In this document: piece by piece, positions 331-27,057 of the stretch
How the letters are laid out: every line of letters begins with the position of its first letter
How positions within the stretch are numbered: position 1 is the first letter of the stretch
Assembly (NCBI GenBank): GCA_026645935.1
Contig: JAPKMP010000021.1
Location: 1 to 64,000, forward strand
Source: Candidatus Villigracilaceae bacterium
GTDB taxonomy: Bacteria; Chloroflexota; Anaerolineae; Anaerolineales; Villigracilaceae
Reading direction: 5' to 3'
Length of the DNA: 64,000 bases
Position numbers and translations under genes: made by a program
The notes under the pieces: generated by a model
What the model saw: the letters and a program-made list of their open reading frames with translations, nothing else
Told to the model about the DNA's origin: nothing
Databases searched by the model: none

Positions 331-342
331 CGATTTACTTCA

Positions 343-804
343 GGCTGGTCGGGCAATCGCGGTCCTGCGTTGTCGGGATCGAGGAAAGTCCGCACTCCTA
401 TAGAGCACGGCGTCGGAGAGTACCCCGGGGCGGGGAAGCCGCCGAGAGGCGCGAACCTGCCGGAATGGGCCACAGAAACAAGTCGCTCCCTCACACCCAA
501 CCCGTCTCCCTCAGGGAGACGGGCGAAGGGGTGAGGGTAGTCAGAGTGAAAAGGTGGTGTAAGAGACCACCGGCGCGCGCAGTAATGCGTGCGGCCAGGT
601 AACCCCCGCCGGGAGCAAGGCCAAGCAGGGACGATTTCGTCTGTGGACGATGGGAGGCTGCTCGTCTCCTTACGCGCCCTTCCCTCCTGTGGGTTGGGCC
701 AGTCCCGGGTAGGCTGCACCGAGCGGAGCGGAGACGCTTCGCCCAGAGAGATGATTGCACAGTGGCGTTTACGCCACGGACAGAATGCGGCTTATAGACC
801 AGCC
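343..804 (+). ncRNA. rnpB: RNase P RNA, bacterial type A
   Basis: This is the catalytic RNA of RNase P, which matures tRNA 5' ends. The universal CR-I segment GAGGAAAGTCCGCACTC lies near 381. An ACAGAAAC and GTGAAAAGGTG pair flanks P12. GGAGCAAGGCCAAGCAGGG follows in the P15 region, then CCGGGTAGGCTGC, and near the 3' end GACAGAATGCGGCTTATAGACC. GGCTGGTC at 343-350 pairs with GACCAGCC at 797-804 to close stem P1, which sets both ends. The P12 position (about 486-538) is occupied by a long hairpin resembling a dispersed spacer repeat. The HypA-like gene begins 17 bases downstream. Confidence 0.95.
486..538 (+). repeat. spacer-type palindrome forming RNase P stem P12
   Basis: A perfect 10-bp inner stem (CCCGTCTCCC, loop TCA, GGGAGACGGG) is enclosed by a nearly perfect outer stem (CCTCACACCC with GGGGTGAGGG). 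This CCCTCACCC...GGGTGAGGG type of palindrome is familiar as an intergenic repeat in several bacterial genomes (general knowledge, not checked here). It replaces the ordinary short P12 helix, so the RNA gained an extended arm without loss of its conserved core. Confidence 0.7.
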
Positions 805-820
805 TGGAGCACTTATTGGT

Positions 821-6216: not shown

Positions 6217-8280
6217 TCAGTCTTCAAGAAGTCGGGTCATGTCCGACGCGGAAACAGGGTGGCTGAGCAGATATCCCTGAACGTTATCGCACAATTGATT
6301 GCGAAGAAATTCCAGTTGTTCGCCCTTTTCGACGCCTTCCGCCACCACTTCGAGACCAATGGAGCGAGCCATGGCGATGATCGCCATGATCAGGGATTCG
6401 TTTTTCTTGTTCGTTTGGATATCACGGATGAACGACTGATCGATCTTCAGTATTTTGAGCGGGAATTGTTTCAAATAACTAAGCGAGGAATACCCAGTCC
6501 CGAAATCGTCCAGCGATGTTTGAACCCCAAGCCTGTCCAATTCGGTCAGGAGGTTATTGGTATATTCCATATCCAGGATGGCGACATTTTCAGTGATCTC
6601 GAGATGCAATCCATTGCTATCCAACCCGGTCACGGACAGGATGGATGCCACTTTCTTTGTAAGTTCAATATCCTGAAATTGCCGGGCAGACAAATTAATC
6701 GACACCCAGAAATCGGGATGGCGGGAATTCCGCCAGATCTTTGCTTGCGCGCAGGCGGAGCGCAATACATGCTCTCCGATCGGAATGATCGCTCCGGTCT
6801 CCTCTGCAACATGGATGAAATCTTTCGGATACAGGAGTCCCCTGTGAGGATGGTTCCAGCGCACCAATGCCTCCGCGCCGACCGCCTTGTTGGTTGTTAG
6901 GGAGACGATCGGCTGATAATGGATGACCCATTCCTCCCGTTCAACGGCGCGCTTCAACTCCGCCTCCAGTCGAATTAACTCGACCGCATTGGTGTGCATG
7001 GTGGCGTCGAAGATCCGGTATTGATTCCCACCCTGTGCCTTTGCCACATACATGGCCGCATCCGCGTCGCGCAGGAGTTCATCCGCTTTTGTGTACTTTT
7101 CGCTGAACAAGGCAATACCGATGCTGGCGGTCGGGAAACGCTCCACAGCGCCGAGCATGGTGGTCGTTTTCAATTGTGCCTTGATCCGGTTTGCGATCTG
7201 AAGCGCCTCATTGATGTCCGGGATGGAGTTCAGGAGAATGGCAAATTCGTCTCCGCTCAGACGGGATACCGTATCTTCGTTCCGAATGCAATGCATTAAG
7301 CGGTTGGCAATGGTGATCAGCAACTGGTCGCCAACTCCATGACCGAGGCTGTCATTGACCACTTTGAAGCGGTCAAGGTCGAGGAACATGACTGCGAAAA
7401 GGTCGGATGGATTTCTTTTGATGCGCTCGAGTCGGTTTTGCAGCCGATCCAGGAAAAGCACCCGGTTTGGAAGCCCGGTCAGCGGGTCATGAACGGCGTC
7501 GTGAGCGAGGCGTAACTCCGCGATTTTCCGGGAAGTGATGTCTGATTGTGATCCTGCCATTCGATACGGGGTATTCCTGGCATCCCGGACGGCCATTCCG
7601 CAGCTGAGAACCCAAAGATATTTTCCGGTAGCATGCTTGATCCGGTATTCACATTCGAAGTGGGAGCTCGTTCCCTTGAGGTGTGAGACCAGGTTTGCCT
7701 GGACGATTCTCTGGTCGTCTGTATGGATGCGATTGAACCATTCGTCAGTACCATTGCTGATCTGATCGTCCTTGAAGCCTAGCATCTCCTTCCAGCGGAT
7801 TGAATAGTAGATTTCATTTGTCTGTAGGTTCCAATCCCAGATCCCGTCGTTGGCGGCGCGGACAGCCAGCGCATAGCGTTCTTCGCTTTCACGCAGTTTC
7901 CGATTCATGCTGTGCTTGAAAAGCGCCATGGTAATATCTGACTTCAATTCACCGGCGTTAAACGGCTTGAGGACGAAGCCATATGCCTGGGCAAGCATGG
8001 CGGTTTGCAGGGTCATTGTATCGGCTTGTGTGCTGATAAAAACGACCGGAATATCCATATTGTCATGGATTTGCTTTGCTGCTACGATGCTGTCCATTTT
8101 CCCCTTGAGGCGGATCTCTAACAACACAAGATCCGGTTTTAGTTCCCCGACCATCTGAACGGTTGATTCCCCGGAGATTGCACTGCCCACGACTTTGTAC
8201 CCCAAATCTTCCAAGATTGCGAAAAGGTCGCTGGCGGCTTGGGTGTCATCTTCCGCAATAAATATCCGCTCTTTTTGCAT
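6217..8280 (-). CDS. receiver-PAS-GGDEF-EAL cyclic di-GMP protein
   Basis: The 687-residue cytoplasmic protein has a receiver domain (4-120), PAS/PAC sensor (about 135-255), GGDEF domain (262-430) and EAL domain (440-685). EAL residues are intact: EALVRW, NLSARQF, EITEN, DDFGTGYSS, KIDQSF and VAEGVE, so c-di-GMP phosphodiesterase activity is expected. The GGDEF signature reads SGDEF (342-346), a variant active in some enzymes, with FKVVND and LGH intact. The receiver keeps the acidic pair (EDD) and Lys105, but the phosphoacceptor position is Glu55 (LVLLEIRLKG) rather than Asp, which may mimic constant phosphorylation. No partner kinase is adjacent. It may influence the GEMM riboswitches at 23.2 kb. 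Confidence 0.93.
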   Translation of the reverse strand: MQKERIFIAEDDTQAASDLFAILEDLGYKVVGSAISGESTVQMVGELKPDLVLLEIRLKGKMDSIVAAKQIHDNMDIPVVFISTQADTMTLQTAMLAQAYGFVLKPFNAGELKSDITMALFKHSMNRKLRESEERYALAVRAANDGIWDWNLQTNEIYYSIRWKEMLGFKDDQISNGTDEWFNRIHTDDQRIVQANLVSHLKGTSSHFECEYRIKHATGKYLWVLSCGMAVRDARNTPYRMAGSQSDITSRKIAELRLAHDAVHDPLTGLPNRVLFLDRLQNRLERIKRNPSDLFAVMFLDLDRFKVVNDSLGHGVGDQLLITIANRLMHCIRNEDTVSRLSGDEFAILLNSIPDINEALQIANRIKAQLKTTTMLGAVERFPTASIGIALFSEKYTKADELLRDADAAMYVAKAQGGNQYRIFDATMHTNAVELIRLEAELKRAVEREEWVIHYQPIVSLTTNKAVGAEALVRWNHPHRGLLYPKDFIHVAEETGAIIPIGEHVLRSACAQAKIWRNSRHPDFWVSINLSARQFQDIELTKKVASILSVTGLDSNGLHLEITENVAILDMEYTNNLLTELDRLGVQTSLDDFGTGYSSLSYLKQFPLKILKIDQSFIRDIQTNKKNESLIMAIIAMARSIGLEVVAEGVEKGEQLEFLRNQLCDNVQGYLLSHPVSASDMTRLLED

Positions 8281-19566: not shown

Positions 19567-22016
19567 GTTCGCAAAAGAGTGATATGAGACCACGTTGGCG
19601 TAAAGTATTTCACGATTTATGGGATAGCAAGATGCGCACCCTGTTGGTGGTATTTTCCATCGCGGTGGGTGTGTTTTCCATTGGCGTGATCTCCGGCGCG
19701 TACGAGATCATCTCCAATGACATGGGCGCTTCGTATGCGGCAAATAACCCGGGGAATATCGAGTTGCGCACATCCGGATTCGACGATGATGTGTTGTCTT
19801 CGATCCGAAACACAAAGGGAATCATGGAAGCAGAGGGCCGGCGGGTGGTCAACTTCCGTGTGCGAGCCGAGGGCAGCGACAGCTGGGTGACGATAGATTT
19901 GGTGGCGTTCGACGATTTCGCGAAGAATGAGGTCAATTTATTGGTTCCGCTGCAGGGCAAGCCTGAAGCGGGCAAGAACGAGATTCTGATCGAAAAAGAG
20001 GCTCTCGATGAGTTCGATATTGCTGTGGGCGAGAATCTTGTTTTTGAACTTACAGATGGGACTTTCAAAACCTTGAAAGTGGTTGGTATTGTGCAGGATG
20101 CGAGCACAGGCGCGGGAGATTTTCTTGCGCCGCCGTTCGCTTTCACCGTTATGGATACGATGGAGACTTTGCGTCAGCCGGAATTGTATAACCGGGTGTT
20201 TGCCACGGTAAAGGAGAATCCGAACGATCTCGCACACATCCGCATCGTCGGCGGCGATTTGAAGGATAAGGTCGAAAAGACGGGCACGACCGTGATCCGC
20301 ACGCGTTATTCGGAGAGGAACAAACACCCGCTGGCGGATACGGTCAATGCGGTGTTGGGGATTTTGATGGCGTTGGGCATCCTGATCGTTTTTCTCTCTA
20401 GTTCACTGATCGCAAACACTTTGAGCGCCCTCTTGAACCAGCACCTGCGGCATATCGGCGTGATCAAACTGGTGGGAGGCAGAAACCGCCAGGTCTTTGC
20501 CATGTATCTGATGCTCATCATGGCGTTTGCGGCGTTGTCGTTATTGATCGCGGTACCTCTTGGCGGTCAGGGCGCTTATGGATTGGCGCTTTTCATCAGC
20601 AGTGAGTTGAACTTCAACCTGCTCGGGTATCGTATCGTTCCGTTTGCATTTTTGATCCAGGTTGCAGTGGGTCTGCTTGTGCCTTTGATCGCCGGCCTTG
20701 CCCCGGTTTTGACTGGTTCGCGAATCACCATCCTGAGGGCTTTGAGCAATGACCTGACAGGCGATGAATCCGGCGGGGAAAAGGGACAACAAGCCCGTGT
20801 GAGCTGGCTGGATTGGGCGCTTGTGCGCCTGACCCGCATCCTTGCTTCGAGAGGGATGCATTTACCGCGTCCTTTCATCATCTCCTTGCGCAATACCTTC
20901 CGCAGGCGCGGGCGGCTCATGTTGACCCTGTTCACCTTGACAATGGGTGGCGCCATTTTTATTGCCGTATTCAATGTGCGCGTCAGCCTGCGCGATTACA
21001 CGGAGCAAATCGGAAGTTACTTCCGCGCGGATGTCACCCTGGATTTCGATCAGCCTTACAGGATCAACGAGGTTCAAAAATTCGCCTCGCAGATTGATGG
21101 GGTGGAGCGCGTGGAGGGATGGCAGTTTATCGGGACTGAGTTGTTATATCCTGACGGCACAGTTGCCGAGAGTGTGAACCTGCTTGCACCTCCCGCAAAC
21201 AGTGAGTTGGTCAGCCCGATCATGGCATCAGGCAGGTGGATTCAGGCGGACGATGTCCGCATGGTCGCAGTCAGTGAGGCGGTTTTGAAATACTATCCCG
21301 GTCTGAAGCCCGGCGATCCGCTTTATTTGAAAGTGGATGGGCGCGAGGAAATATGGGAGGTGATCGGCATCTTCAAGTTTGTGGGGCGCGAAGGCATTCT
21401 TGCCTACACTCCGCTGGAGTATTCGGAGCAAGTGCTAAACCTCAAGAATCGTTCGTTTTCATTTCGGGTGGTGACGTCCATCCACACCCGCGAGTTTCAG
21501 GATGCAATGGCGGAACGATTGGACGATCAATTCCGCTCATTGGGATTCAAAGTGCGTCAAGCCGAATCGGGTCTGGCTTCGCTGGATACGGTTTCTGAAA
21601 GTTTGGATACGCTGGTGGTCTTTCTTCTAATCATGGCAATTCTGACCGCCATTGTCGGCGCGATGGGTCTTACCGGCACGATGGGAATGAACGTGCTGGA
21701 ACGCACCCGCGAGATCGGCATCATGCGTGCGGTTGGAGCGGACGACCGCGCTGTCATGCGGACGGTCATCGGCGAAGGGTTTGTGATCGGCGCGATCTCT
21801 TTTGTGTTTGCCATCGTCGTCTCGGTCCCCTTGACGTATCTCCTCGCGTATATCGTCAGTGTGGCGATCTTTGAAACCCCCATTGCGGTGATATTCACAT
21901 ACCTTGGCTACGCAATCTGGCTCGGACTGGTTTTATTGCTTTCCGTTCTCGGTTCGATCCTGCCCGCCCGCAATGCGGCGCGATTGACCATTCGGGAGGT
22001 ATTGGCGTATGAGTAG
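19560..22016 (+). CDS. MacB/FtsX-type ABC permease with two FtsX domains
   Basis: This permease (818 residues) has a first membrane helix near residues 25-47 (LLVVFSIAVGVFSIGVISG), an extracytoplasmic MacB-like domain (about 50-260), three helices of the first FtsX domain (265-395), then a second copy of the same layout: helix near 460, extracytoplasmic domain 480-670 and FtsX helices 685-818 ending in ARNAARLTIREVL. The ERTREIGIMRAVGA coupling motif meets the ATPase. Such permeases move lipids, peptides or antibiotics or transmit force. The start at 19560 lies in a palindrome; the ATG at 19584 (MRPRWRKV) is a credible alternative. Confidence 0.92.
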   Translation: MSGSQKSDMRPRWRKVFHDLWDSKMRTLLVVFSIAVGVFSIGVISGAYEIISNDMGASYAANNPGNIELRTSGFDDDVLSSIRNTKGIMEAEGRRVVNFRVRAEGSDSWVTIDLVAFDDFAKNEVNLLVPLQGKPEAGKNEILIEKEALDEFDIAVGENLVFELTDGTFKTLKVVGIVQDASTGAGDFLAPPFAFTVMDTMETLRQPELYNRVFATVKENPNDLAHIRIVGGDLKDKVEKTGTTVIRTRYSERNKHPLADTVNAVLGILMALGILIVFLSSSLIANTLSALLNQHLRHIGVIKLVGGRNRQVFAMYLMLIMAFAALSLLIAVPLGGQGAYGLALFISSELNFNLLGYRIVPFAFLIQVAVGLLVPLIAGLAPVLTGSRITILRALSNDLTGDESGGEKGQQARVSWLDWALVRLTRILASRGMHLPRPFIISLRNTFRRRGRLMLTLFTLTMGGAIFIAVFNVRVSLRDYTEQIGSYFRADVTLDFDQPYRINEVQKFASQIDGVERVEGWQFIGTELLYPDGTVAESVNLLAPPANSELVSPIMASGRWIQADDVRMVAVSEAVLKYYPGLKPGDPLYLKVDGREEIWEVIGIFKFVGREGILAYTPLEYSEQVLNLKNRSFSFRVVTSIHTREFQDAMAERLDDQFRSLGFKVRQAESGLASLDTVSESLDTLVVFLLIMAILTAIVGAMGLTGTMGMNVLERTREIGIMRAVGADDRAVMRTVIGEGFVIGAISFVFAIVVSVPLTYLLAYIVSVAIFETPIAVIFTYLGYAIWLGLVLLLSVLGSILPARNAARLTIREVLAYE

Positions 22017-22018
22017 TA

Positions 22019-22054
22019 ATGATCGTAAATCAACAATCTCCAATAGAAAATCGA
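22019..22054. repeat. ATCGTAAATC-type low-complexity spacer
   Basis: ATCGTAAATC, AATCTCCAAT and GAAAATCG occur in series between the permease stop and the HlyD-like start. The same words appear inside queA (29812-29850) and before udgB (30053-30080). Confidence 0.55.
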
Positions 22055-22065
22055 AGAAGGTTCCC

Positions 22066-23193
22066 ATGAAGAATAATATATTGATGGTTATAACTCTGGC
22101 CGTTCTCTTTATGCTGGTTTTGTCCGCATGTGACGGCAGTCAACAGGTTGCGGCGACGGAAGAGCCGGCAGCCGATGTGATAGATGCCGGCGATATTATC
22201 GCTGAAGGGCGGATTGAACCCTTCCAAGCTGCGAACTTGACCTTTCAGGCGCGAGGCATGGTGGAGGAGGTTCTCGTCCGGATTGGGGATACTGTCAGCG
22301 AAGGGGATGTTCTGGTCCGTTTAGCAAATGCGGGGGCGGCGGAGGCGCAGGTCGTTGTCGCACAAATCGCATACGATACCCTCCTTCGCAGTGAAAGCGG
22401 CGACCGCGCCAGATTGTGGGAAGTGTACATGAACGCCCAGATCGTCCGCGCTGAAGCGGAAAGAGAATGGGAGGATCTCGATGTGGATGCCATCGAAGAC
22501 CGCATTGAAGACCTTGAAGGCGATATAAAAGACCTGAAGGATGACTTGCAGGACGCGCAGGAGGAGTTTGACAAATATAAGGACCTGGACGAAGAAAATT
22601 CCAAACGGATTAACGCCGAGGACGATCTTGATGCGGCTCAGGAAGACCTGAATGAGAAAATTCGGGAGTTGGAAGCGGAGATCCGTTCGCGTGATGAACT
22701 GAAAGCCGAGTACGATGCCGCGCTTGCCGCGGAAGCCGAAGCAAAATACCAGTATGAGATCAGCCTCGACGGACCGAATGCCGATCAGTTGACGATTGCC
22801 AGGGCGAACCTTGAAGCAGCAAAAGATGCCCTCTCGAATTATGTCATTACTGCGCCGTTCTCCGGCAGGGTTGCGGATGTGAGCGTCAAGGCGGGGGAGC
22901 AGGTTGGAACAGAAACACGCGCTGTAAGCGTAGTGAACGACAGCCAATGGTTTGTCGAAACCACTGACGTGACAGAATTGGAAGTGGTGAACCTGAGCAT
23001 CGGTCAGACCGTCTCCATGCGCCCTGATGCCTTACCCGACCTTGAATTAACTGGAACTATCGTCGAAATTAGCGATGCCTTTACCCAACAAGGAGGCGAC
23101 GTTCTCTACTCCGTCCGCATTCGCGTAGACACTTCTGACCCCAGATTAAAATGGGGCATGACCGTTGAGACCATTTTTAGAACAATTGAGTGA
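22066..23193 (+). CDS. HlyD/MacA-like periplasmic adaptor lipoprotein
   Basis: From the ATG at 22066 the 375-residue product has a lipoprotein signal (LVLSACDG). A first lipoyl/barrel strand set (IIAEGRIEP, VEEVLVRIGDTVSEGDVLVRL) is followed by a long charged coiled coil (about residues 110-235, Asp/Glu/Lys-rich heptads), the returning lipoyl half (ITAPFSGRVADVSVKAGEQV) and a beta-barrel domain. This is the membrane-fusion (MacA/DevB) role and completes the exporter. AAGAAGG precedes the chosen start; a frame from 22009 would only add repeat-derived residues. Confidence 0.88.
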   Translation: MKNNILMVITLAVLFMLVLSACDGSQQVAATEEPAADVIDAGDIIAEGRIEPFQAANLTFQARGMVEEVLVRIGDTVSEGDVLVRLANAGAAEAQVVVAQIAYDTLLRSESGDRARLWEVYMNAQIVRAEAEREWEDLDVDAIEDRIEDLEGDIKDLKDDLQDAQEEFDKYKDLDEENSKRINAEDDLDAAQEDLNEKIRELEAEIRSRDELKAEYDAALAAEAEAKYQYEISLDGPNADQLTIARANLEAAKDALSNYVITAPFSGRVADVSVKAGEQVGTETRAVSVVNDSQWFVETTDVTELEVVNLSIGQTVSMRPDALPDLELTGTIVEISDAFTQQGGDVLYSVRIRVDTSDPRLKWGMTVETIFRTIE

Positions 23194-23222
23194 TTGAAAA
23201 ACGACCCAAAAAATGCCATAAT
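23194..23222 (+). promoter_or_regulatory. promoter of the GEMM riboswitch array
   Basis: TTGAAA (23194-23199) and CATAAT (23217-23222) with exact 17-base spacing directly precede the first aptamer, putting the RNA start at about 23229. Confidence 0.65.
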
Positions 23223-23228
23223 AAATTT

Positions 23229-23317
23229 GCTCCGAGAAAGAGCAAAACCGGGAAAACCCGGCGACGCAAAGCCCTACTCTAAAGCTGAACTGAGCCATGA
23301 GTGTCAGGGTTGCCGAG
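23229..23317 (+). ncRNA. GEMM-I cyclic dinucleotide riboswitch, copy 1
   Basis: The GEMM-I core is visible: AGAGCAAAACC, a CCGGG/CCCGG stem with an A-rich loop, CGACGCAAAGCC, a CTAAAGC...GCCATGA receptor-like stem and GGGTTGCCGAG. Aligned to the Vibrio Vc2 aptamer, the A of GCAAAGCC is the intercalating A47 and the base at position 20 is A, not G. In known families G20 favours c-di-GMP and A20 is typical of the GEMM-Ib (cyclic AMP-GMP) group. Confidence 0.85.
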
Positions 23318-23408
23318 AAAAGCAAAATCACGCGAAAGCGTGACGGCGCAAAGTCAGAGCGTCTAAAACCAACGGGCATTTACGCTGGTCAGGACCGACC
23401 GACTGCCG
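23318..23408 (+). ncRNA. GEMM-I cyclic dinucleotide riboswitch, copy 2
   Basis: AAAGCAAAATC, the stem TCACGC-GAAA-GCGTGA with a perfect GNRA tetraloop, CGGCGCAAAGTC, the receptor GTCTAAAACC...GGTCAGGAC and GACTGCCGA. The GAAA loop and its TCTAAAACC receptor are the hallmark docking pair of this class. The position equivalent to Vc2 G20 is again A. Confidence 0.9.
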
Positions 23409-23500
23409 AAAGGCAACGCACGCGAAAGCGTGACGACGCAAAGTCATGGGTCTAAAACCGAAATTCGTTTTCCGGTCAAGATCGCCAGACTGCCGAAGAG
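23409..23500 (+). ncRNA. GEMM-I cyclic dinucleotide riboswitch, copy 3
   Basis: AAGGCAACGC, the stem CACGC-GAAA-GCGTG, CGACGCAAAGTC, receptor GGTCTAAAACC...GGTCAAGATC and GACTGCCGA. Unlike copies 1 and 2, the base equivalent to Vc2 position 20 is G, as in c-di-GMP aptamers. It is followed after about ten bases by a strong hairpin terminator. Confidence 0.9.
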
Positions 23501-23512
23501 CAAATCATTATC

Positions 23513-23550
23513 GCAGGGACGACTGCAACAGAGTCGTCCCTGCTTGATTT
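23513..23550 (+). terminator. hairpin terminator after the GEMM array
   Basis: GCAGGGACGACT (23513-23524) and AGTCGTCCCTGC (23532-23543) form a perfect 12-bp stem with a seven-base loop, followed by TTGATTTTAATT. It could be the expression platform of the riboswitches; it also resembles dispersed GTAGGGACGA-type palindromes, so a repeat origin is possible. Confidence 0.65.
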
Positions 23551-23591
23551 TAATTATTTGTACAATCAAATGTTGCCCTCCATTTCGTTGT

Positions 23592-23597
23592 TATAAT
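23592..23597 (+). promoter_or_regulatory. possible second promoter (-10) downstream of the array
   Basis: TGTTATAAT lies 42 bases before the MBOAT ATG, after the terminator. No good -35 was seen at 16-18 bases. If active, it would bypass the riboswitches. Confidence 0.4.
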
Positions 23598-23638: not shown

Positions 23639-25012
23639 ATGGACTTTGTATTCCCAACCTTTCTGTTTCTGTTTTTGCCGATATTCACTTTGGTGTATTC
23701 TCTGTCTGGAAGTCGTTTCAAACTCTTCGTTGGTGTATCAGGGAGCCTTATTTTTTATTCTTGGGGAAACTCGCAGTATGTGTTATTAATAGTATGCCTT
23801 GTTTTGATCACTTATGAGCTCGCCTTGTTGCTCGAAAGATGGCGTGGAAGGAAGGTGGCTTTTTACTTATTGTGGGGTGGGATCGTTTCAACAGTCAGCC
23901 TTCCTGTTTGGTTTAAGCTCCATTCAGATTTGCCTTATCCATTGGGATTGTCCTATATTGCTTTTCAGATAATTTCTTATTTGGTGGATGTCAATAAAAA
24001 TCCTGAGAATCTTGAAAAAGATATATTGAGGTTTTCATTCTATCTGCTCATGTTTCCCAAAATGCCGGTTGGACCTATTGTGCCCTACCGTCAGGTAAGG
24101 ACTCACATTGCCGATATCAAACCCACGCCTCAGGATATGGCAGTTGGATTGCGTCGGTTCTTATGGGGTTTTGCCAAGAAAGTTTTAATAGCCGATACGT
24201 TGGCGACCGTTGTGACACCTGTTTTTAATTTGCAATCCCCTGTTATAACACCTGGATTTGCCTGGCTGGTAATTATTAGTTATGCGCTTCAGCTATATTA
24301 CGATTTTTCTGGATATACAGATATGGCGATCGGGTTAGGTCAAATGATGGGTGTTCGATTCATGGAGAACTTTAATTTACCATACCTCTCCAAAAGCATA
24401 GGTGAATTTTGGCGTCGATGGCACATTTCTTTGTCTGCGTGGTTCAGGGAGCTCGTTTTTTATCCGTTAGAACGCCATCGTTTTAAATGGTTGGGACAGC
24501 AAATCAATGTTCTGATCATATTTACACTTACCGGATTGTGGCATGGGCTGAATATGAATTTTGTTCTTTGGGGTATTCTGCATGGATTGGCATTGGTGTT
24601 CGAGTCTTCGGTTTTTGGGCGCATGCTTCGTAATTTATGGAGACCCCTTCAACATTTATACGCTCTAATGGTGATTATTGTTGGATGGGTGATTTTTCGA
24701 TCTCCATCCCCAGATTTTGCTCTTGATTATTTGAGACGTTTAACAGGTGACATAAATGGAATCCAGGTATTGCCCTTTGAACTTACCAACCCTCTGCCAT
24801 TTATTGAACCGACCTTTTTGATTGCGCTAGTGCTTGGTGTTTTGTTGTGCTTTCCATGGGGCGACTGGTTTTCTCGATTATCACAAAAATCTGGCAACGT
24901 TCGTTTTGCAATGAGGGTTATTATTGATGCGGGATCAATCATGATTTTCATTGCAGCGCTTGCCTCAGCTGCCAGCGCTACTTATCTCCCCGGGATTTAC
25001 GGCGGATTTTAG
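23639..25012 (+). CDS. MBOAT family O-acyltransferase (AlgI-like)
   Basis: A polytopic membrane acyltransferase of about 457 residues with roughly ten hydrophobic helices. It has the AlgI/DltB-type N-terminus (FLFLFLPIFTLVYSL), the conserved FWRRWHISLSAWFRELVFYPL region and the catalytic His in LTGLWHGLNMNFVLWG. Such proteins pass acyl groups, usually acetyl, across the membrane to modify exopolysaccharides. The gene is clearly AT-richer than its neighbours, suggesting transfer or distinct selection. The ATG at 23639 gives a family-like N-terminus; a TTG at 23630 has the better-spaced AAGGG site. It lies behind three GEMM riboswitches and is followed by an AlgX/AlgJ-like partner. Confidence 0.9.
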   Translation: MDFVFPTFLFLFLPIFTLVYSLSGSRFKLFVGVSGSLIFYSWGNSQYVLLIVCLVLITYELALLLERWRGRKVAFYLLWGGIVSTVSLPVWFKLHSDLPYPLGLSYIAFQIISYLVDVNKNPENLEKDILRFSFYLLMFPKMPVGPIVPYRQVRTHIADIKPTPQDMAVGLRRFLWGFAKKVLIADTLATVVTPVFNLQSPVITPGFAWLVIISYALQLYYDFSGYTDMAIGLGQMMGVRFMENFNLPYLSKSIGEFWRRWHISLSAWFRELVFYPLERHRFKWLGQQINVLIIFTLTGLWHGLNMNFVLWGILHGLALVFESSVFGRMLRNLWRPLQHLYALMVIIVGWVIFRSPSPDFALDYLRRLTGDINGIQVLPFELTNPLPFIEPTFLIALVLGVLLCFPWGDWFSRLSQKSGNVRFAMRVIIDAGSIMIFIAALASAASATYLPGIYGGF

Positions 25013-25035: not shown

Positions 25036-26010
25036 ATGAAACGCAAGACTCTTCTCTTAAAATTCTACTCATTCGCATATTTTGTCTCCGTGCTTTTATT
25101 ACTCGTTAGTCAACTTTTTGTTTCCGGAATTACGATCGACTCGATTCCTGAAGATTATTTGCTGAAAGATGATTTGATCAAGGCGTACCGAAAATTTAAA
25201 TTTGATATTGGCGATAGGATTTTTCCTTCTGCAGTGGTTGGAAAAGATGGCTGGTTATTCTATACGGGAGAAATGAGTTTACGAGATTATCAAAAAGTCG
25301 ATCCGTTGAATATAAGCAACATCAAAAAACTTGTGGGTATACTTAATCAAATGGACGCTGCAGTCAAGGAATATGGAGGAACGCTATTGGTTATCGTTCC
25401 TCCCGATAAAAGCACAATTTACCCGCATTATATGCCTGATGAGATTCCGGTCATTGGAACCACTACCAGTCTTGATCGGCTTATCGAGCGTACCAGGGTT
25501 TATGGGAATTATCAATTATTGGATTTGCGACCGACTTTGATTCAGGCTGGTCGATCCTCCCATTTGTATTACAAGACGGATACCCATTGGAATTGCCTTG
25601 GGGCATTTTATGCGTATGAAGATGTTATATCAAATTTGATTAAGATCCATCCTGGGTTACCAAGGTATCGTATGAACGATTTCAATATCGATTTTTTCGA
25701 GGTACATGGTCTCGATATTGCCAGGCAAATGGGGACGAATATTGTTGATACCGAGGTGGCTTTTACCCCAAAGTTTGCGATGGATGGAACCAAAGAAACA
25801 CCGGGCCTAATGGTAGTTCACGACTCCTTTTATAATGCATGTTTATATCAGTTCTTTGAAGCGACATACCAGGACATTGTACCGGTATCGTATGGTGATG
25901 TTGAACTGGCTGATATACTTGAAATGATAGAGAAAGAAAAGCCGGAAACAGTGTTAGTGGAATTTGCGGAAAGGTTCATGGACCATTTCTTATGGCACCT
26001 ATATGAATAG
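25036..26010 (+). CDS. AlgX/AlgJ-like SGNH acetyltransferase-like protein
   Basis: The 324-residue protein has an N-terminal membrane anchor (residues 12-34) and an extracytoplasmic SGNH-like domain of the AlgX/AlgJ type: GKDGWLFYTGE near residue 70, VVPPDKSTIYP, then the YYKTDTHWNCLGAFYAYE motif holding the Asp-x-His pair, and MVVHDSFYNAC with the expected nucleophile Ser. In alginate systems such proteins place acetyl groups, delivered by the MBOAT partner, onto the polymer. It is AT-rich like the preceding gene and starts 23 bases after it. The polymer modified is unknown; no glycosyltransferases adjoin. Confidence 0.88.
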   Translation: MKRKTLLLKFYSFAYFVSVLLLLVSQLFVSGITIDSIPEDYLLKDDLIKAYRKFKFDIGDRIFPSAVVGKDGWLFYTGEMSLRDYQKVDPLNISNIKKLVGILNQMDAAVKEYGGTLLVIVPPDKSTIYPHYMPDEIPVIGTTTSLDRLIERTRVYGNYQLLDLRPTLIQAGRSSHLYYKTDTHWNCLGAFYAYEDVISNLIKIHPGLPRYRMNDFNIDFFEVHGLDIARQMGTNIVDTEVAFTPKFAMDGTKETPGLMVVHDSFYNACLYQFFEATYQDIVPVSYGDVELADILEMIEKEKPETVLVEFAERFMDHFLWHLYE

Positions 26011-26025
26011 AGGGAATACTTTGTG

Positions 26026-26031
26026 TATAAT
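26026..26031 (+). promoter_or_regulatory. -10 element giving a leaderless ruvB transcript
   Basis: TGTGTATAAT is followed by six bases (CCCGCC) and the ATG at 26038. The arrangement predicts a transcript starting at the initiation codon and fixes the ruvB start. Confidence 0.6.
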
Positions 26032-26037
26032 CCCGCC

Positions 26038-27057
26038 ATGGCAAAATCCAGATCGCTCGACCCCGAATCAAAACCCGATGACCGTGTGGACAACGCCCTG
26101 CGCCCGCAGAAACTTGCCGACCTGATCGGTCAGGATCAGGTGAAGGAAAACTTGTCGATCCTGATTGCAGCGGCGCAGCAACGGACGGAAGCGTTGGATC
26201 ATGTCTTATTTTACGGTCCGCCCGGTTTGGGAAAGACGACGCTGGCGCATGTGCTCGGCAACGAAATGGGAGTCAACGTAAAGGTCACAGCCGGACCCGC
26301 CATCGAGCGCGCCGGAGATCTCGCCGCGATCCTTACCAACCTTCGCGCGGGTGATATTCTTTTCATAGACGAAGTTCATCGCCTCGGACGCGCCGTGGAA
26401 GAAGTGCTCTATCCAGCGATGGAAGATTTCGCGTTGGATATTGTGATCGGAAAGGGACCCTCGGCTCGATCCATCCGCCTGAAACTGCCTCGGTTTACCG
26501 TGGTTGGCGCCACGACCAGACTTGCCCTCGTCACCGCACCCTTGCGGGCGAGATTTGGCGCAGTCTATCGTTTGGATTATTACGATATCGAAGCGATGAA
26601 GCGGATCGTTTCGAGGGCAACAGGGTTGCTGAAGGTTTCTGCTGATGATTCAGGTATCGACGAAGTGGCGAGGCGCGCGCGTGGGACTCCGCGCATTGCA
26701 TTGCGTTTGCTCCGCCGCGTTCGTGATTTCGCCCAGGTGCGTGCGAATGGGACGATCACGCAAAAGGTCGCGAAAGAGGCTTTGGATTTATTGCAGGTCG
26801 ACCCGCGCGGGTTGGATGATGTCGACCGCCGCGTATTGAAGACCATCATCGAAAAATACAGCGGCGGACCTGTTGGGTTGAACACCATTGCCGCCTCCAT
26901 CAGCGAGGAGCAGGACACGATCATGGATGTGGTCGAGCCTTATCTGTTGCAGCTCGGTTTTCTTGATAGAACTCCGCAAGGGCGTGTGGCAACCAAATCC
27001 GCATACGAGCATTTGGGGTATCAATACTCCGAGGAAGGCCAGCCAAGGTTGTTGTAG
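26038..27057 (+). CDS. ruvB: Holliday junction branch migration helicase RuvB
   Basis: RuvB is the hexameric AAA+ motor that, with RuvA, drives branch migration at Holliday junctions. Visible are [19 protein letters not shown], Walker [14 protein letters not shown], Walker [10 protein letters not shown], sensor 1 [19 protein letters not shown] with the arginine finger region, sensor 2 [18 protein letters not shown] and the winged-helix C-terminus [19 protein letters not shown]. The 339-residue length is normal. ruvA and ruvC are not in the window. Confidence 0.97.

Follow-up and report, generated by a model that had tools for sequence, protein, structure and literature searches.

A 64,000-nucleotide stretch of DNA from a Candidatus Villigracilaceae bacterium (contig JAPKMP010000021.1, positions 1 to 64,000; hereafter the window) carries three GEMM-I riboswitch aptamers packed between a HlyD-type adaptor gene and an MBOAT O-acyltransferase gene. 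Such a triple raises the question of whether the aptamers act as stacked riboswitches on a neighbouring gene or belong together in a stand-alone RNA.

Three GEMM-I aptamers in the window

A first-pass annotation of the sequence had described three complete GEMM-I aptamers in a row and proposed a check with the Rfam covariance model RF01051. This check bore the description out, with every copy scoring above the gathering cut-off of 35 bits (Table 1). The Rfam cmscan of the whole window gave two RF01051 matches only, copies 1 and 3, and the middle copy was missing from its listing, either discarded as an overlap or stopped by the filters. When its own stretch was scored alone, the middle copy reached 38.3 bits at 23313-23410, and a search of the genome gave it 43.7 bits; against the cut-off of 35, these scores rule out a chance middle copy. 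The genome holds five RF01051 matches, and the two outside the array form a spaced doublet on another contig. The cmscan of the window also placed a bacterial class A RNase P RNA at 341-810 (+ strand, 208.5 bits).

Table 1 Coordinates of the array, its predicted signals and its neighbour genes in the window. L035 is the window's own array locus and R1 the family covariance model described in the text.
Feature	Position	Strand	Evidence
HlyD-type adaptor gene, usual upstream neighbour	22009..23193	+	PF16576/PF13437; homologues upstream in 35/58 loci
Promoter-like site of array, TTGAAA-N17-CATAAT, TG before second hexamer	23194..23222	+	Sequence scan; similar site in 53 arrays
P1 5' strand (ATTTGCTC)	23225..23232	+	Pairs with 23498-23505; covariation; present in MFE fold of window RNA
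GEMM-I aptamer copy 1	23231..23317	+	RF01051, 52.7 bits (Rfam cmscan, whole window); R1 match in L035
GEMM-I aptamer copy 2	23311..23410	+	RF01051, 43.7 bits (genome search); R1 match in L035
GEMM-I aptamer copy 3	23402..23497	+	RF01051, 63.8 bits (Rfam cmscan, whole window); R1 match in L035
P1 3' strand (GAGCAAAT)	23498..23505	+	Pairs with 23225-23232; covariation
Intrinsic terminator, 12-pair stem 23513-23543 then TTGATTTT	23513..23551	+	Terminator scan; no antiterminator found
TATAAT, second promoter-like site upstream of MBOAT gene	23592..23597	+	Sequence
MBOAT O-acyltransferase gene, array-to-ruvB interval in window's clade	23639..25012	+	PF03062; 8 loci
AlgX/SGNH-like gene	25036..26010	+	PF16822; between array and ruvB in window's clade
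ruvB	26026..27057	+	RuvB domains; own TATAAT 26026-26031, 6 nt before ATG 26038

Recurrence of the array in relatives

We analyzed the conservation of the array, starting from the MBOAT protein (PF03062) encoded downstream of it as a query in 57 genomes of the genus. Rfam was run on 19 of the MBOAT loci (L035-L053). Aptamers were found upstream in eight, the window's own included, and all eight were triple; the Rfam scan showed no aptamers upstream of the next best MBOAT match (L042). A pattern for the compact junction between copies located arrays in further genomes of the family, the matches to fetch being chosen by eye. In this way 52 further stretches were fetched; L145 and L146 served as contrast loci. 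A covariance model (R1) was then made from 49 copies and run over 59 loci, 58 of them array loci. It gave 172 matches, three of which (the lone opposite-strand aptamer of L133 and the two of L145) were omitted from the tabulated rows.

Exactly three R1 matches were found in 54 of the 58 array loci, so the fused three-copy array is conserved in relatives, the copy-number check that had been proposed. The exceptions were L098 with one match, L106 with two, and L122 and L123, which lie at contig ends, with two each. The loci represent nine genera (g1, g3, g6, g8, g9, g13, g15, g20 and g25, out of the 26 genera listed for the family), all within one family of the Anaerolineales. One array (L117) comes without its 5' flank, and counts that depend on the flank use 53 arrays. 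The arrays share descent, and locus counts here and below are for that reason not independent of one another. Outside the family, inspection by eye of two sets of 396 and 400 genomes, with 25 family members in each, found no real compact junction; the pattern gave many chance-like matches elsewhere, and a reversed-pattern control also matched in many genomes. The annotated remark that triples are uncommon thus agrees with the published tally, which in the accessible part of PMC9481103 stands at 347 GEMM-I doublets and 12 triplets, but is untrue for this bacterial family.

The copies follow one another every 76-95 nt, and the CCGA of one is separated from the core of the next by no more than a few nucleotides. 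The GCAAA motif is retained in 51, 51 and 52 of the 54 arrays (copies 1, 2 and 3), and the CCGA end in 53, 50 and 52. The four arrays in which copy 2 is without its CCGA end are L100, L101, L102 and L134, and their middle copy may be a ghost aptamer.

A single closing helix shared by three aptamers

An ordinary aptamer of the family usually has a CGA at the end of its 5' flank, a few nucleotides ahead of the core; its 3' flank reads CCGAA, and the P1 helix lies outside. In the arrays, every inner CCGA doubles as the 5' flank of the following copy, so that only the 5' flank of copy 1 and the 3' flank of copy 3 are left for pairing. These two flanks form at least four contiguous pairs in 52 of the 53 arrays (exception L097), and all of the first four P1 pairs are formed in 50. 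The mean run over the 53 arrays was 5.75, compared with 1.30 when the 5' flank was paired with the sequence following copy 1 and 3.62 with that following copy 2. For the 22 distinct P1 sequence pairs, it was 5.14, and shuffling the partners lowered it to 4.15 ± 0.28 (p = 0.00085). The types seen include GCTC/GAGC, GCAC/GTGC and GCACTC/GAGTGC, as well as TTTGCACT/AGTGCAAA and GAACGCTC/GAGCGTTC.

We also scored P1 in an alignment (A2) of 49 of the 53 arrays, from which L036, L120, L131 and L141 were left out. In A2, 85.7% of P1 cells pair (82.0 ± 1.0 in shuffles), and both sides are altered in 12 cells, where shuffles give 4.7 ± 1.8; slid versions of the helix pair in 28-56%. Two of the five covariation measures are weak: the count of pairs changed on both sides (four) was reached in 20 of 500 shuffles, and that of further pair types (seven) in 392 of 500. 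Four rows of A2 (L095, L103, L105 and L107) are by eye out of register at P1 and therefore count against the helix in the pairing scores. Without constraints, folding gave P1 at only 9 of 14 loci, which we counted against a stand-alone RNA. Taken over the aligned arrays, these comparisons indicate that a single helix, joining the 5' end of copy 1 with the 3' end of copy 3, closes all three aptamers.

A further pairing was noticed beside P1. Positions 23502-23506 can pair with 23546-23550, that is, AAAYC just 3' of the P1 GAGC with GRTTT in the T tract of the terminator. In relatives this pairing seems by eye to covary (AAATC/GATTT, AAACC/GGTTT, AATC/GATT), and its formation would come at the expense of the outer P1 pairs.

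Promoter-like site and terminator

The promoter-like site read before copy 1 in the first-pass annotation is present, but in the window alone it is no rarer than chance (one site found, compared with 0.6 ± 0.6 in shuffles). Its weight comes from a similar, near-fixed site in relatives. Upstream of the 53 arrays lie a TTGAAA-like hexamer, a spacer of 16-17 nt and an AATAAT- or CATAAT-like hexamer, the best match per locus, taken with no shuffled control, scoring 9-11 of 13 points; the force of this result lies in the fixed position. In 43 of the 53 arrays, 10 nt separate the end of the second hexamer from the CGA flank, so that an RNA would be expected to start about at P1.

This near-fixed position of the promoter-like site bears on whether the array is a decayed or neutral aptamer repeat without function. 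Loss of the CCGA end of copy 2 in 4 of 54 arrays would fit decay, but copy number, spacing, promoter place and a P1 with compensatory changes are conserved across nine genera, and we regard decay as very improbable.

At the other end of the array, a strong hairpin follows aptamer 3 in 20 of the 20 loci examined. In 15 of them its distance from CCGAA is 8-18 nt. In the other five (L035, which is the window's own, L037, L110, L129 and L135) the distance is 2-4 nt, and the strongest hairpin reaches into the 3' strand of P1; the outer terminator pairs and P1 could thus compete, a point against a stand-alone RNA. In the window, the MFE fold of the RNA contains both the terminator and P1. Opening the main stem of the terminator was computed to cost 14-27 kcal/mol in 14 loci, which speaks for a stand-alone RNA. 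This value is near that of shuffled arrays; in 13 of the 14 it lay under the shuffled mean, by 0.2-1.7 kcal/mol, which counts against a stand-alone RNA.

We then compared the 5' arm of the terminator with the 3' strand of the aptamer, a test that covered terminator-type platforms. Complementarity reached z below -2 for 15 of the 19 ordinary family aptamers tested and for 0 of the 17 arrays. The median duplex energy was -18.2 kcal/mol for ordinary aptamers and -7.6 for arrays (Mann-Whitney p = 5 × 10−6 on energies and 4 × 10−6 on z). The ordinary set comprised 19 of 21 terminators, leaving out the second one of L012 and that of L024, a near twin of L023; a terminator-like hairpin was lacking at 22 of the 43 ordinary aptamers. 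The 17 arrays used here, the 14 used for opening cost and the 20 used for hairpin position were hand-picked for diversity out of the 54. Alternative pairing of a terminator-type platform with the aptamer was thus found in none of the 17 arrays, and the folding test found no antiterminator in its 14 loci.

These results argue against the first-pass suggestion of steeper or logic-like responses, if these are read as control of a downstream gene by stacked riboswitches. No terminator was found between the copies on the + strand in the scan of the window array, the inner copies are without flanks for a P1 of their own, and the single terminator is without an aptamer-complementary arm; the downstream gene, moreover, differs among genomes, is convergent in 10 of 55 loci, and in its usual form has its own promoter. 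Three independent riboswitches in series, giving a pseudo-cooperative digital response as in Bacillus thuringiensis Bc3-5, would explain three aptamers of one class in a row. This arrangement is extremely improbable here, given the pitch of 76-95 nt, the few nucleotides from CCGA to the next core and the absence of internal terminators; each Bc3-5 copy, as described in the accessible part of PMC4759541, has its own platform. Cooperative or logic-like binding inside one RNA is possible.

Changing neighbour genes

In the window, the array follows genes for an FtsX permease and a HlyD-type adaptor, and the commonest order among the loci is HlyD adaptor, array, ruvB. The array might regulate this upstream export operon, for example as its 3' end, as the HlyD-type gene upstream in 35 of 58 loci would allow. 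However, a promoter-like site lies between the HlyD gene and the array, and the upstream gene is unrelated by BLAST in some other genera (L101, L103, L105, L106 and L107), which leaves regulation of the operon improbable.

Downstream, the next gene in 55 loci was ruvB (29), MBOAT (8), a response-regulator gene (5), another co-directional gene (3) or a convergent gene (10); it was not visible in L123, L126 and L136. The ORF caller was crude, and the neighbours of L038, L125 and L132 were reassigned by eye. Convergent genes occur at L098, L100, L104, L106, L107, L108, L133, L140, L143 and L144, eight of which are three-copy loci. Eight of the ten convergent genes have a Pfam match: adenylosuccinate synthetase, two molybdopterin enzymes, two DnaJ, two methyltransferases and one nitroreductase. 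We had considered control of the MBOAT/AlgX pair by the array and dropped it, as the same array precedes ruvB and convergent genes.

Among the co-directional neighbours, MBOAT and ruvB have promoter-like sites of their own. A TATAAT lies between the terminator and the gene in seven of the eight MBOAT orthologues (exception L038). All 37 motif matches at ruvB, which stand for 36 genes as the window's own was counted twice, have a TATAAT 6-7 nt ahead of the start codon; this suggests leaderless ruvB transcripts in the array-bearing family; the main ruvB transcript would then probably be independent of the array. With TATAAT at every matched ruvB and convergent genes at 10 of 55 loci, the loci reveal no conserved co-directional target gene without its own promoter.

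A cis attenuator nevertheless has points in its favour. The next gene is co-directional in 45 of the 55 loci, which makes read-through control possible and was counted against a stand-alone RNA; the MBOAT/AlgX pair downstream in the window is a plausible c-di-GMP target; and overlap between P1 and the outer part of the terminator stem is seen in 5 of 20 loci. Ligand would then alter termination at 23513-23551, adding read-through into MBOAT or ruvB atop their own promoters. Against this stand the terminator arm, which unlike that of ordinary family aptamers has no complementarity to the aptamer, the presence of both P1 and terminator in the MFE fold of the window RNA, the ruvB TATAAT so close to the start codon, and the convergent genes. 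We consider such an attenuator unlikely.

Ligand pocket

We take model position 11, the base that precedes the core's first GC pair, to be the equivalent of Vc2 G20, and the pocket bases of GEMM-I aptamers to be G20 (or A20), A47 and C92. In the window, this base is A in copy 1 (23241), A in copy 2 (23321) and G in copy 3 (23412), so that A20, a feature of cGAMP riboswitches (GEMM-Ib), is present in the first two copies and absent in the third. Across the 54 arrays, position 20 is A in 45 and G in 9 for copy 1; A in 49 and G in 5 for copy 2; and G in 41, C in 8 and A in 5 for copy 3. By pattern, 53 arrays divide into AAG (32), AGG (5), AAC (5), GAA (3), GAG (3), GAC (3) and AAA (2). This largely kept, copy-specific identity argues for a division of labour among the copies. 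The eight arrays with C in copy 3 are L114, L119, L120, L128, L130, L131, L135 and L136, and they indicate that the base varies for other reasons too. By hand count, with one spurious regex match left out, A20 occurs in 99 of 162 array copies compared with 6 of 47 other family aptamers, an excess that is biased because the latter come from top-scoring Rfam matches. According to the accessible part of PMC9481103 (section 38), such a pocket change is common in c-AMP-GMP sensors.

The genome's GGDEF domains were examined for the cGAMP-making Hypr type, with Ser for Asp at the selectivity position. Among the 13 readable domains of 20 GGDEF matches none was of this type, all 13 having Asp there, which makes c-di-GMP the safest candidate ligand; cGAMP is possibly a second ligand, at the A20 copies. 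A firm cGAMP reading was dropped in view of the 13 Asp domains and the C at position 20 of copy 3 in 8 of 54 arrays. The best PF00990 match of the genome (168.5 bits), a GGDEF domain at 7021-7497 (− strand), lies on the array's contig. In the spaced doublet of the same genome (L145, contig C55), both copies have G20. The doublet lies about 115 nt before a 500-aa ORF that by eye resembles a secreted LysM protein, and it is a candidate for an ordinary cis riboswitch.

The array as a probable stand-alone RNA

Compared across loci, the array has recurrent parts, a largely constant copy number, a shared P1 and a terminator arm that is not complementary to the aptamer, and its neighbours change. As judged from sequence, it forms a unit from promoter to terminator without a conserved target ORF, which is what a merRNA-like element would look like. 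Neither of the two cis-riboswitch features tested, an alternative-pairing platform of the terminator type and a conserved promoterless co-directional target, was found. We infer that the array is transcribed into an RNA that binds ligand and has a buffer or trans function. It is probably an autonomous unit for a stand-alone, three-site noncoding RNA, most likely binding cyclic dinucleotides and acting in trans.

Transcription of this RNA would start about at the 5' strand of P1 and end at an unconditional terminator, giving some 320 nt. It would fold into three head-to-tail GEMM-I cores, each using the CCGA of the preceding copy, with the one P1 helix closing all three. Up to three cyclic dinucleotides could then be bound, c-di-GMP and possibly cGAMP at the A20 copies. 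Its action in trans might be that of a buffer or reservoir of the signal, or of a ligand-gated small RNA. A signal buffer would be the simplest function because each RNA has three sites. The alternative of a ligand-gated small RNA is hinted at by a G[A/T]ACTG loop in the apical part of copy 1 (23241-23314 in the window). The loop, a possible contact site, is present there in 42 of the 54 arrays and was seen in none of the second and third copies. Its stem seems by eye to vary with compensation (GCT/AGC, with GCC/GGC in L104 and GTT/AAC in L134).

A tentative variant of this scheme, which we would not expect to hold, is an RNA integrator. Here, the three aptamers, with pockets of two types (A20, and G20 or C20), would share the closing helix, and the outer fold would need the right mix of bound c-di-GMP and cGAMP. 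The RNA, folded or unfolded, would then act in trans, and the copy-1 hexaloop, G[A/U]ACUG, might be the part involved.

Comparison with known systems

A riboswitch aptamer is almost always interpreted as a switch in cis, and the array is a natural, widely conserved apparent exception, in which three aptamers seem to have been freed from an expression platform and fused under one P1. It makes testable the use of RNA as a bacterial second-messenger buffer and the coupling of neighbouring aptamers that share a closing helix. A further caution is that a riboswitch match in Rfam beside a gene need not mean regulation of that gene. We found no description in the open-access literature of a fused GEMM-I triple closed by one P1.

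Published tandem GEMM-I riboswitches resemble the array in their tandem copies and in that one genome combines c-di-GMP types with a variant of the c-AMP-GMP type, but the accessible parts of the reports treat them as gene-control riboswitches and describe no shared P1 or stand-alone unit. The Bc3-5 RNA of B. thuringiensis likewise has three GEMM-I aptamers in a row; in the accessible part of its description (PMC4759541), each has a platform of its own within an operon's 5' UTR, whereas the array is platform-free, shares one P1 and is apparently autonomous. The cGAMP riboswitches of Geobacter (GEMM-Ib), so far as the accessible parts of PMC6456294 and PMC8835794 describe them, share the GEMM-I fold and the altered pocket base seen in copies 1 and 2. 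They differ in that no Hypr-type GGDEF occurs here among the 13 readable of 20 matches, the array pocket being known from sequence.

The nearest precedent is merRNA of Bdellovibrio bacteriovorus, which the accessible part of PMC3627812 describes as a massively expressed RNA of 445 nt, detected only within the Bdellovibrio lineage and proposed to be an intracellular store of c-di-GMP. Like the RNA predicted for the array, it is noncoding, contains an aptamer of the c-di-GMP riboswitch class and precedes no conserved ORF. The array, known from its sequence, differs in consisting of three fused aptamers under one P1 and in extending over nine genera of another phylum.
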